DNA from: Microthrixaceae bacterium
GTDB lineage: Bacteria; Actinomycetota; Acidimicrobiia; Acidimicrobiales; Acidimicrobilacustridaceae
Direction of reading: 5' to 3'
Assembly (NCBI GenBank): GCA_947449015.1
Contig: CANFQA010000024.1
Coordinates: forward strand, 1 to 36,585
DNA: 36,585 nucleotides
The translations under genes and the position numbers were made by a program. Each line of letters starts with the position of its first letter. The first letter of the stretch is position 1. Under the pieces are notes generated by a model. It saw only the letters and a program-made list of their open reading frames with translations, did no database searches and was not told the DNA's origin. Shown here in pieces: positions 17,933 through 20,703 of the stretch.

Positions 17933-18342
17933 CGAGTCGCCGCCGTGGCCGCAGGAATCTCGGCCGCACGCTGATCATCGTCGGCACGCGGTTCCAGATA
18001 GACCGGTGTCGGCGCAGGCACCATTCCAAGGAGCGCCGCCGCATCACTGGTGACGCGCACCGGACTCTGCAACTGAGCGATCTGCGCATTGAGGTCCTGC
18101 GCGTTGTGCTGCTCAGTAGCGATCTGGCGGTTCAGTGAATCGAGATTGCGCTGCTGGCCAATGATCATTGTGTAGGAGGCGAGCATGATGAACATCACGA
18201 TGAACACGCCCAACCCGGTGAGGACACCGGCGCGAACACTGGCGCGTCGACGCTGTTCGGCGACAACGGAGAGATCGACCTTCGGCGCACGTGTTGGCGC
18301 ACGACTGCCGTCGTGGAGGAATGGGGAAATGCGGGCGGTCAT
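17929..18342 (-). CDS. ftsL: FtsL-like bitopic septum protein
   Basis: Small division protein expected to pair with FtsQ (and FtsB/DivIC) and activate FtsW-FtsI. The protein has 137 residues. A cytoplasmic N-terminus of about 38 residues leads to one membrane helix (about 39-61, GVLTGLGVFIVMFIMLASYTM). A predicted coiled coil follows (about 64-95, LDSLNRQIATEQHNAQDLNA), then a short C-terminal Pro-rich tail. FtsL sequences are poorly conserved, so the call rests on size, topology and place between rsmH and ftsI. Both ends overlap neighbours by 4 nt. Confidence 0.85.
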   Translation of the reverse strand: MTARISPFLHDGSRAPTRAPKVDLSVVAEQRRRASVRAGVLTGLGVFIVMFIMLASYTMIIGQQRNLDSLNRQIATEQHNAQDLNAQIAQLQSPVRVTSDAAALLGMVPAPTPVYLEPRADDDQRAAEIPAATAATR

Positions 18343-19304
18343 GACTGAGCCTTCGGCGTCCGCCGGCGAGCGACTCGCAACCGAGCACTCTCAGAGCGCC
18401 GGTTGTGTTCCAACTCATCAGTCGTTGGGGTCCTCCCGCCGCGGCGGATGAGTTCAACCTGATTGATTGCACCACAGACACAGGGCAGACCCGTAGGACA
18501 GGTGCATCCACCGGTCTCGGCGTCACGAAGCACCTGCTTGACGATCCGATCCTCACCCGAGTGATACGAGAGCACCGCGACCCGACCGTCGATTTCGAGC
18601 AGATCGATGGCATCGCGCAAAGCAAGCGGCAGCACCTCGAGTTCTGCATTCACCTCAATGCGAATGGCTTGGAATGTCCGCTTGGCGGGATGCCCGCCTC
18701 GACGACGGGCGGGCGCAGGAATGGCGTCGCGCACCAGCTCCGCAAGCTGTCCGGTGGTCAGGATGGGACGAGCGGCGATGATCGCCCTGGCAATGCGGCC
18801 GGCGAATCGTTCGTCGCCGTTGTCCCGCAGGACACGCACCAGCTCCTGCTCGTCATAGTCATTCGCCACGATGGCCGCCGACAGCGACTGCGAGGGGTCC
18901 ATGCGCATATCGAGCGGCGCATCGAGGCGATAGCTGAAGCCGCGCGCAGCGCGGTCCAGTTGGGGGGAACTGACGCCGAGGTCAAACAGCACCCCGACGA
19001 TGGGTGAATTGGCCGGCAATTTCTCGGCCACAACCTGGGCAATTGCATCGAACCGGGCACGAACAGTGAGTGCCCGATCCCCAAAGCGAGCCAGACGTTG
19101 GGTCGCAACAGACAGCGCATCGGGATCCTGATCGATGCCGAGCACCCGCAGGTGAGGAAACGCTTCGAGGAGAAGGGTCGAGTGACCTGCCCCGCCAAGC
19201 GTGGCATCGATAATCCAGCCTGCTGGCACTGGTGCGAACGCCTCCACGATCTCTCGCGCCATCACCGGTTGGTGGACGAAATCGTTCTCGGGGGATCGGT
19301 CCAT
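18339..19304 (-). CDS. rsmH: 16S rRNA m4C1402 methyltransferase RsmH (MraW)
   Basis: SAM-dependent N4-methylation of C1402 in 16S rRNA at the ribosomal P site. From the ATG at 19304 the protein has 321 residues, normal for the family. It begins with the typical FVHQPVMAREIVEAF, then the SAM motif DATLGGAGHS (33-42). LFDLGVSSPQLDRAARGFS, ARRRGGHPAKRTFQAIRIEVN and AVLSYHSGEDRIVK are all RsmH signatures. A C-terminal Cys cluster (CTCPTGLPCVCG) is common in this family. The frame is open to an ATG at 19553, which would add 83 residues not found in most RsmH proteins; that stretch contains nested inverted repeats instead. Mycobacterial annotations show a similar uncertainty. Start confidence is moderate. 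Confidence 0.95.
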   Translation of the reverse strand: MDRSPENDFVHQPVMAREIVEAFAPVPAGWIIDATLGGAGHSTLLLEAFPHLRVLGIDQDPDALSVATQRLARFGDRALTVRARFDAIAQVVAEKLPANSPIVGVLFDLGVSSPQLDRAARGFSYRLDAPLDMRMDPSQSLSAAIVANDYDEQELVRVLRDNGDERFAGRIARAIIAARPILTTGQLAELVRDAIPAPARRRGGHPAKRTFQAIRIEVNAELEVLPLALRDAIDLLEIDGRVAVLSYHSGEDRIVKQVLRDAETGGCTCPTGLPCVCGAINQVELIRRGGRTPTTDELEHNRRSESARLRVARRRTPKAQS

Positions 19305-19563
19305 GACGCAGGTCTTCACCGTTCGTGGTGATCGCAGGGAATGGGTCCGCTCATGAGCGGCCCCTCGGAACACGGTCGCCCGCCGGGATTTCTCCCCGGC
19401 TGGGCTCGACGGTAAGCGGGCGGAGTAGGGGCCTTCCATCGTGTGTTCCGAGAGGCTGCACAGGAGCGGACCTCGGGTCGGTGCGACCGAACCTCGGCGG
19501 GTGAGACGGTCCTTTCGTGGGGTCAGGTTCGGGGTAGGAGTTGGAGCGGTCATGACATCGGGG
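19305..19563 (-). promoter_or_regulatory. Structured leader between mraZ and rsmH
   Basis: This 259-bp stretch between the mraZ stop and the preferred rsmH start contains nested inverted repeats. An outer 10-bp perfect pair is CTCGGAACAC (19364-19373) with GTGTTCCGAG (19443-19452), extended by GGCCCC (19359-19364) against GGGGCC (19428-19433) in an alternative pairing. Inside, GCCGGG and CCCGGC (about 19382-19400) form a strong hairpin with a 7-nt loop, lengthened by GCCC/GGGC with one bulge. Its position matches the actinobacterial mraW RNA motif upstream of mraW genes, but I cannot test a covariance model. It could instead encode an RsmH N-terminal extension. Confidence 0.5.
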
Positions 19564-19983
19564 TCACAGCCCGAGGGCGGTCACCGCTTGGATGAGTGAG
19601 TCATCGGCGAGAGCGGACTGGTCGGTCCAGCGACCGGTCTCCCAAATCTCGATCCGGTCAATGGCGCCGATCACCACGGACTCGCGCCCGAGACCGGCAA
19701 ACTCACGAAGACGCTGGGGAATGGTGATTCGGCCCTGGGAATCGGGCCGGACCTCGTGGGCATTGGCGGCGAAGGCGCGCAGCGCTCCCTGGGGTACCTC
19801 ACCATTGCGGATTCGCTGGGTGAGACGGTCCGCGGCATCGGCGAACCCCTGCTCGGTCCAAAGCCCCAGGCAGCGATCCCACTGAGAAAGGAATCCACGG
19901 TCGGCTAGCTGGGCGCGGAAGGTCGAAGGGAGGACAACTCGCCCCTTGTCGTCGAGCGAATGCTCAAACGTCCCCACGAACAT
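19564..19983 (-). CDS. mraZ: Transcriptional regulator MraZ
   Basis: First gene of the dcw cluster. MraZ is an AbrB-fold DNA-binding protein with two tandem SpoVT/AbrB-like repeats that forms a ring and binds direct repeats in its own promoter. The protein has 139 residues, as usual. Each half carries the DxxxR signature: DDKGRVVLPSTFR (about 11-23) and DSQGRITIPQRLR (about 81-93). The start codon follows a leader of about 40 nt. The promoter upstream holds two pairs of GTGGG boxes spaced 5 nt apart, so autoregulation is likely. Confidence 0.97.
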   Translation of the reverse strand: MFVGTFEHSLDDKGRVVLPSTFRAQLADRGFLSQWDRCLGLWTEQGFADAADRLTQRIRNGEVPQGALRAFAANAHEVRPDSQGRITIPQRLREFAGLGRESVVIGAIDRIEIWETGRWTDQSALADDSLIQAVTALGL

Positions 19984-20007
19984 GACTGCCTAACCTTCCA
20001 CCGGCCC

Positions 20008-20059
20008 CCCACGGAGCCCCACTGCGCTGCACCATAGACCCACTTTCCCCCACCGTCAA
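20008..20059 (-). promoter_or_regulatory. dcw promoter with MraZ-type GTGGG operator boxes
   Basis: On the - strand there is TTGACG (20054-20059), a 17-nt spacer and TATGGT (20031-20036), a good housekeeping-type promoter. GTGGG occurs at 20049-20053, 20039-20043, 20018-20022 and 20008-20012. Both pairs have exactly 5 nt between boxes, so units repeat every 10 bp. A degenerate GTGGA is at 19997-20001. One pair lies in the -35/-10 spacer, the other at or just after the expected transcription start. This matches the known MraZ target of GTGGG-like direct repeats with 5-nt spacers. Binding would block transcription initiation. Confidence 0.75.
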
Positions 20060-20166
20060 CCATTGGTCTCCCCTGCAGTTGCCCCCGTCCCAGGTGCCCA
20101 CGGTTGCCGCACTTGCCCTCATGGCGATCCGGGGTCGATTGACCCTCAACCAGCGCAGCGCCGACC

Positions 20167-20172
20167 TACGAT
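20167..20172 (+). promoter_or_regulatory. Putative -10 box (leaderless start) of the VOC gene
   Basis: TACGAT followed by 6 nt and the GTG start at 20179. No ribosome-binding site is needed if the transcript starts at the GTG. Confidence 0.5.
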
Positions 20173-20178
20173 CCGCCG

Positions 20179-20703
20179 GTGCCGTTCCATCACCTCGCGC
20201 TCGTTACCAACGACCTCACTGCTACCCATAACTTCTATACCGAGGCGATGGGCTTCACCCTTGCGAAAGTCGTCATCGGACCCACGGAGAACCCCGACGG
20301 ATGGGCCCGACACGTCTTTTACGACACTGGCGATGGGCTCATGGCGTTCTGGGAGCTTCACGACGAGTCACTACCCAGTGTTGACGCCGCGATCTCGACC
20401 GGGATTGGTCTCCCAGCATGGGTGAACCACCTCGCGTTCCGGGCTGGTGCTGACGGGCTTGCTCCCCACCTCCAGCGCTGGCTGGATTTCGGACTCGAAG
20501 TTGTCGAACTCGACCACGAGTTCTGTGTCTCGCTGTACGCCACCGACCCGAACGGCATTCTCGTCGAATGGTGCTGCGATAGCCGCCCTCTCGACGCAGC
20601 GGATCGTGCAGAGGCTGCATTGCTGCTGTCGGACCCTGCGCCTCGCCTTGATCCGCTTCCCTCGGTCACCCTCCACAACGCCGCGCACGGACTTTTACCC
20701 TGA
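20179..20703 (+). CDS. VOC-family (glyoxalase/dioxygenase fold) protein
   Basis: Metal-dependent protein of the vicinal oxygen chelate superfamily; the substrate is unknown. The protein has 174 residues built from two beta-alpha-beta-beta-beta modules. Likely metal ligands are His in FHHLALV (about residue 4-5), Glu in FWELHD (about 58), His in WVNHLAF (about 83) and Glu in ILVEWCC (about 129), the usual H-E-H-E pattern. The DPNGILVEW block is typical of glyoxalase/bleomycin-resistance-type members. A 40-residue C-terminal tail lies outside the fold. GTG start supported by the TACGAT box 6 nt upstream. It is divergent from mraZ. Confidence 0.88.
   Translation: MPFHHLALVTNDLTATHNFYTEAMGFTLAKVVIGPTENPDGWARHVFYDTGDGLMAFWELHDESLPSVDAAISTGIGLPAWVNHLAFRAGADGLAPHLQRWLDFGLEVVELDHEFCVSLYATDPNGILVEWCCDSRPLDAADRAEAALLLSDPAPRLDPLPSVTLHNAAHGLLP

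Follow-up and report, generated by a model that had tools for sequence, protein, structure and literature searches.

Translational operators such as ribosomal-protein leaders hide the ribosome-binding site. Closest in position to the RNA described here is the mraW RNA motif (Rfam RF01746), which is listed for Actinomycetales as probably an RNA, probably cis-regulatory and ambiguous as a riboswitch (PMC2864571). In C. glutamicum, the start site given for cg2377 (2,266,932) falls within this motif (2,267,021-2,266,916), towards its 3' side (PMC3890552), and in C. diphtheriae the motif is noted upstream of a start site (PMC5784534). A second relevant system comes from B. subtilis, for which a preprint reports that mRNAs with their start region in a stem-loop need MraW-modified ribosomes for efficient translation, and that a stabilised stem cut expression both with and without MraW (PMC13317604).

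We analysed a folded RNA in the gap that separates mraZ from rsmH, two neighbouring genes that head a cell-wall gene cluster; it is on the minus strand, which is the sense strand of rsmH. The window, by which we mean the whole 36,585-nt stretch of DNA that was analysed, has the following features at this locus:

19564-19983, minus strand: mraZ (ORF list, Pfam)
18339-19553, minus strand: rsmH (mraW) open frame (ORF, Pfam), with an extended start at ATG 19553 and a downstream start at ATG 19304
19344-19474, minus strand: the whole RNA element, 131 nt (match to covariance models R1 and R2)
19443-19472, minus strand: outer stem, 5' arm (arm complementarity and fold)
19344-19373, minus strand: outer stem, 3' arm (arm complementarity and fold)
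19407-19441, minus strand: hairpin A, present in long and short forms (predicted fold, alignments)
19417-19427, minus strand: apical loop of hairpin A, UACUCCGCCCG (76-sequence alignment, 140-locus pattern search)
19378-19405, minus strand: hairpin B, with the top GGGGAGAAAUCCC, absent from the short forms of other orders (fold, alignments)
19361-19366, minus strand: GAGGGG, a Shine-Dalgarno-like run within the 3' arm (sequence)
19316-19354, minus strand: an AUG in the 3' arm (19352-19354) and its 12-codon ORF (sequence)

The mraZ gene ends at 19564, and the first base of ATG 19553 is the 11th after its stop. The rsmH frame is open back to this ATG, as the earlier note on this DNA had stated, giving an ORF of 404 aa. 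RsmH homology begins after ATG 19304; the Pfam MraW match starts at residue 92 and ATG 19304 is residue 84, consistent with the boundary proposed in that note. Behind rsmH the window continues with a dcw-type series (transpeptidase, Mur ligases, and MraY-, FtsW- and MurG-like proteins) in closely packed or overlapping frames.

The two arms of the outer stem are 30 nt each and 87% complementary (19344-19373 with 19443-19472). A perfect 10-bp inverted pair that had been pointed out before (19364-19373 with 19443-19452) is indeed present and forms their inner part. The fold predicted from the sequence runs from this long stem into a three-way junction that carries hairpin A, with its large loop, and hairpin B. 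The minus strand of 19344-19472 folded at -83.1 kcal/mol, compared with -52.0 +/- 4.0 kcal/mol for 200 dinucleotide shuffles, none of which was as stable (z -7.7); the broader span 19304-19566 gave a z of -5.5. The earlier observation is therefore right, and understated. Its GC hairpin is real (19378-19405), but the second hairpin (19407-19441), which carries the most conserved part, had not been singled out, and the boundaries 19359-19452 were too narrow for an element that covers 19344-19474. Terminator-like sites, defined as a GC hairpin with a U tract, were absent from 19200-20150, and the reading as a transcription attenuator or intrinsic terminator was rejected.

We assessed how far the element is conserved, beginning with the genus. 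RsmH was present in 19 of its 21 genomes, and the mraZ-rsmH gap could be taken from 19 loci; L019, which is without an intergenic region, was excluded. The core of the element was almost invariant, while the flanks varied in sequence and length. Within these varying flanks, most genus sequences, L004 being an exception, share ACGAAAGGACC (19508-19518 in the window) in the segment from the mraZ stop to the element. Model R1, built from 11 genus sequences, had hits in 123 of 198 genomes from the order and at 29 of 80 named rsmH loci, with scores of 49-156 bits on the rsmH strand versus 25-44 bits on the opposite strand. Beyond the 29, none of the 80 loci had a sense-strand match at E<0.001; three loci whose RsmH is 58-60% identical to that of the window (L057, L059, L061) had no match at this threshold with either R1 or the later model R2. 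Five matched records (L036, L037, L049, L052, L053) are titled Bifidobacterium breve or Acidobacteria, and their rsmH and RNA element are those of Acidimicrobiia; they are probably mislabelled MAG records.

Of 296 sampled genomes from the class Acidimicrobiia, 244 were matched by model R2, built from the 100 sequences of alignment A3, and 52 lacked a match. In a phylum sample R2 matched 15 of 296 genomes, all 15 within the class (27 class members, assigned from row order), and none of the 269 sampled phylum members outside it. Searches of more than 40 genomes (the 149-, 198- and 296-genome sets) ran under stricter filters, at which weak matches are lost. Twelve fetched hits (L211-L222) were excluded from A3, and R2 recovers these too; the 12 weakest hits of the order (E 7.5e-9 to 1.6e-4) lie outside both A3 and the locus counts given below. 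Those counts refer to 140 loci, comprising the 100 A3 hits and 40 chosen loci: 39 class members from outside the order, about half of them with a short form of the element, and genome G317. All 140 have rsmH downstream of the element and 139 have mraZ upstream, the sole exception (L153) being cut by a contig end. A class family with genomes of 0.6-1.1 Mb (f108) gave only weak matches (E about 7e-4 to 1e-6), and these small genomes may carry a reduced form.

Compensatory change provided the main test of the structure. Double changes were seen in only 4 of 45 pairs when the genus was taken by itself, so the structural case rests on the wider sets. In A3 (97 distinct rows), 93.0% of cells were paired and 44 of 45 pairs had changed on both sides, a very strong answer to the earlier note's call for a covariation test in relatives. 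The covariation score was 0.501; shuffling gave 0.222, with none of 500 shuffles reaching the observed value, and slid partners gave no more than 0.126. Since A3 had been fitted to a model, we repeated the count after aligning 76 nonredundant long-form sequences with MAFFT, without reference to structure, and scoring them against the window's own fold. Here 85.6% of cells were paired versus 71.5% when shuffled (highest of 200 shuffles, 72.6%), with 571 double-change cells versus 192 (highest, 231) and only 35-47% pairing for slid partners. By helix, pairing was 90% in the outer stem, 87% in hairpin A and 73% in hairpin B. Every one of 89 nonredundant members, 13 short forms among them, folded with z < -3 (median -6.8; 40 shuffles each). 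Taken together, a real RNA family in the class is strongly supported. It is absent from Rfam 15, and no description of it was recognised in the extracts of open-access papers among the matches listed; the element adds a well-supported family that Rfam 15 lacks.

The element has two forms. Of the 140 loci, 120 carry the long form (124-143 nt) and 20 the short one (99-105 nt), proportions that were set by the choice of loci. Short forms belong to other orders within the class and are without hairpin B, being one long helix with a cap that is mainly hairpin A; hairpin B is also strongly altered in three members of the order (L236, L239, L240). The features that are constant across the forms are the long stem and the hairpin A loop. 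Each of the eight letters of the loop core CUCCGCCC is 97-100% conserved in the 76 nonredundant sequences. A pattern search anywhere within the element found CUCCGCCC at 133 of the 140 loci, CUCCACCC at four, CUCCGCCU at one, and none of these at two.

The earlier note had observed that the rsmH frame runs through this region and might be called coding. From the mraZ stop through the element, the rsmH frame was open at 74 of 139 loci, compared with 33 and 37 for the other two frames; through the element alone the figures were 109 of 140 versus 73 and 92, and a stop in or after the element closed the rsmH frame at 40 of 140. The frame was open in all 19 genus loci extracted. The pattern is tighter in the window's own family, represented by the 11 genus sequences plus L117 and L130. 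In 13 of 13 sequences there is an ATG whose first base is 8-18 nt past the mraZ stop and which stays in phase with rsmH across the element. Six distinct distances separate this ATG from the element (55, 61, 64, 67, 79 and 91 nt), always 1 modulo 3, and four separate the element from the RsmH core (57, 60, 63 and 66 nt), always 0 modulo 3. Because the frame is kept across so many length changes, the stretch may really be translated there, and passage of ribosomes across the element is quite plausible in this family.

The synonymous/nonsynonymous comparison that the earlier note had proposed gave an answer with two sides: the own family keeps the frame, yet we saw no amino-acid constraint on the element in the rsmH frame, among either 9 or 11 genus sequences. 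Nonsynonymous to synonymous codon differences in the element were 392:129 in the rsmH frame and 364:208 and 541:17 in the other frames (11 sequences); with 9 genus sequences the ratio was 271:93 in the element versus 418:573 in the first 50 core codons. Judged by these ratios, a peptide made from the element would be under no visible selection. Codon middle positions made up only 3 of the 29 variable columns of the element (9 genus sequences), with no other sign of protein constraint.

We then examined where translation of rsmH could begin. Family labels in these tallies and in those of the open frames were assigned by hand from the order and class search tables, and relatedness is handled by the family tally alone. 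At 85 of 140 loci the final 23 nt of the element contain an AUG, often in the form CGGGGGGCUGnnnAUG or CGAGGGGCUGnnnAUG. Of these 85 AUGs, 54 share the rsmH frame, and 22 and 9 fall in the remaining two; when each family is scored by its majority, 28 of 43 families place the AUG in the rsmH frame (binomial p 2e-5 against 1/3). At 53 of 140 loci, representing 27 of 61 families, there is no rsmH-frame ATG, GTG or TTG between the element and the RsmH core, which leaves only the arm or a site upstream for initiation. A G-rich, Shine-Dalgarno-like run precedes the arm start at every one of the 53 (41 ATG, 12 GTG). The location of rsmH start signals inside a conserved fold in many lineages suggests post-transcriptional control of rsmH output.

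A start codon together with a Shine-Dalgarno-like run within the helix is thus a property of 27 of 61 families, and the window's own family is not among them. A start codon further downstream is available at 86 of 140 loci, from 37 families that include the window's, and one locus has no start. The nearest rsmH start in the window, ATG 19304, lies 39 nt past the element; the arm therefore leaves that start uncovered. The arm AUG of the window opens an out-of-frame ORF of 12 codons that ends just before ATG 19304, and the AUG at the same arm position in other families is in the rsmH frame. Coupling of rsmH to this short ORF was considered and rejected, as the genus does not keep it. The RsmH N-termini annotated in Acidimicrobiia may be incorrect, or their coding sequence may overlap with a structured RNA.

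We infer from sequence, with roughly an even chance of being right, that the element is a class-wide, cis-acting mRNA leader that controls translation of rsmH and is opened mainly by read-through from mraZ. The long helix would form once its 3' arm has been transcribed. In many families this arm holds the Shine-Dalgarno-like run and the rsmH start, and independent initiation would be blocked. Ribosomes finishing mraZ could restart within a few nucleotides, presumably at the in-frame ATG, and by reading the rsmH frame through the element would open the helix. Melting by ribosomes halted at the mraZ stop was rejected as a general mechanism: the stop lies a median of 57 nt from the element, and within 15 nt at only 18 of 139 loci. 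Opening would need read-through, given this distance. The almost invariant apical loop could serve as the docking site of a trans-acting factor, for which RsmH is a candidate, and control might extend to the wall and division genes behind rsmH.

Several observations bear on the two parts of this mechanism. Occlusion alone would need no invariant loop, and read-through opening sits uneasily with the 40 of 140 loci at which the rsmH frame is closed and with the lack of amino-acid constraint. The effect of stem stabilisation in the B. subtilis preprint means that a helix of this stability might just stay closed, and that it would need some active opener. RsmH, or ribosomes methylated by RsmH, are candidates both for opening the helix and for binding the loop; if the MraW dependence seen in B. 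subtilis holds here, the rsmH mRNA could require the enzyme that it encodes. The B. subtilis cmpA and isp stem-loops are similar in that a stem covers the initiation region and translation is tied to RsmH. They differ in belonging to other genes rather than to the leader of rsmH itself, no conserved loop is mentioned in the parts of the preprint that concern them, and the RsmH dependence is a B. subtilis finding (PMC13317604). The element also recalls ribosomal-protein leaders, with start signals in a helix and a loop that possibly resembles an rRNA target, the latter a likeness that is only suggestive.

A leader that controls rsmH could also be a divergent relative of the mraW RNA, with the same ancestor and the same job; this kinship is compatible with other mechanisms, and we regard it as possible, if tentative. 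The earlier note had taken the location to fit the mraW RNA motif, and a structured RNA does occupy that position; the identity with RF01746 did not stand. Scanning with the Rfam model, as the note had advised, gave no match in the window at the gathering score and none within 18900-20400 even at E<=10, and the model found nothing at E<=10 in 40 class loci. RF01746 matched 9 of 149 phylum genomes but none of the 13 class members among them (assigned from row order). Conversely, when R2 was run on 8 RF01746 loci, the motif went unmatched on the sense strand up to E 10. With the covariance models failing in both directions, identity with the Rfam motif is rejected, and we do not file the element under RF01746.

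Nevertheless, the two RNAs share a position and a plan. Both occupy the mraZ-rsmH gap, on the strand of these genes, and both have a long imperfect stem and a conserved, C-rich apical loop that contains ACU (ACUUCCCC in the mraW RNA, ACUCCGCCC in this element). The mraW loop was ACUUCCCC at 8 of 9 RF01746 loci and ACCUUCCCC at the ninth (L025), or seven versus one among the eight with rsmH. Predicted folds of the mraW RNA have one hairpin on a long stem at 8 of 9 loci, with a second small one in L026, whereas this element has a conserved three-way junction; its short form in other orders is a single main hairpin, as in the mraW RNA. The mraW RNA almost touches the mraZ stop (-4 to 18 nt at the 8 RF01746 loci with rsmH), and the candidate rsmH starts found at these 8 loci lie beyond it, which counts against kinship, as does the failure of the models to recognise each other. 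Frames through the mraW RNA were open at 7 of 8 loci for rsmH and at 4 and 7 for the others; with such similar values, openness there is uninformative. Among the genomes sampled, no class was seen to contain both RNAs, and the 8 mraW hits that have rsmH beside them sit at the same spot. This likeness in place and plan suggests either a common origin or a common demand. One locus, L029 (G069), had a sub-threshold match to the mraW motif (28.4 bits), and the sequence fetched around it gave no hit to the rsmH core.

Alternatively, the element could act in mRNA processing or stability, with a cut of the RNase III type separating the mraZ mRNA from the rsmH unit and freeing the start where this lies in the arm. 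The long, nearly perfect helices of the members that were folded would suit such an enzyme, and the C. glutamicum start site inside the mraW motif could reflect a cut end as well as a promoter (PMC3890552). However, an enzyme that reads helix length should need no invariant 8-nt apical loop, and we consider processing unlikely.

A bolder reading takes the leader as a homeostat for ribosome methylation. The stable helix would hide the initiation region of rsmH and the loop would imitate the 16S target. RsmH, whether by binding the loop or by way of methylated ribosomes, would in this manner set its own synthesis and also how strongly the wall and division operon is expressed. We hold this combined reading to be unlikely. 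Its narrower version is direct autogenous control, in which the loop imitates the 16S decoding site methylated by RsmH and excess RsmH binds it and keeps the helix shut; this we consider improbable, and mimicry of 16S by the loop is itself a bold possibility raised by sequence comparison.

The comparison with 16S is as follows. Among 10-letter windows, the best 16S match of the loop sequence ACUCCGCCCG was ACACCGCCCG, the RsmH target, in 3 of 3 16S genes, with identities of 9/10 in L223 and L224 and 8/10 in L225. We take ACACCGCCCG to be 16S positions 1396-1405 (E. coli numbering), containing C1402, the base methylated by RsmH. The loop is nearly invariant and precedes the gene of the very enzyme concerned. 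Genome G317, whose 16S has A at position 1405, has the element loop UAUACCGCCCAC, which shares ACCGCCCA with its own 16S. Against mimicry, loop shuffles reached 9/10 against the target region in 534 of 20,000 trials (p about 0.03), five other listed 10-letter matches between element and 16S were also 9/10, and over all 15 loop letters other 16S sites scored equal or higher. Four loci have CUCCACCC instead of CUCCGCCC. RsmH is also reported to need 30S subunits rather than free 16S, as far as the cited passage goes, and this requirement counts against binding to a leader loop (PMC5053481).

Agreement of the loop with 16S position 1405 was mixed. Covariation with this position had looked promising in family f101, with G317 concordant, and was not upheld in G241 and G270, which were discordant, with CCGCCCA in the element and CCGCCCG in the 16S (taking the 16S contigs of these MAGs as theirs). 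G1405A is rare, being found in 2 of 44 genomes that matched the 16S pattern (G317 and G287) and in none of 395 class genomes in a wider search, many of which possibly lack a 16S sequence. The second of these genomes of the order, G287, gave no element hit. In the 16S of G317 (L225), G1405A is paired with a matching C1496U (GAAGUUGUAAC).

It is very improbable that the stretch is merely the N-terminal part of a longer RsmH, with repeats that arose by chance: the open frame at 19 of 19 genus loci, the phase kept in 13 of 13 family sequences and the few middle-position changes (3 of 29 variable columns) would fit, but the compensatory changes in both the A3 and the MAFFT alignments refute coding as the sole explanation, and the stops at 40 of 140 loci, the lack of amino-acid constraint and the sense-strand bias of the model scores also stand against it. 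In the window's own family the stretch is possibly used as both RNA and code.

Upstream of mraZ, the window carries four GTGGG repeats within 20007-20053 (minus-strand starts at 20053, 20043, 20022 and 20012), which overlap a promoter-like site at 20059-20031. These repeats look like an MraZ operator.
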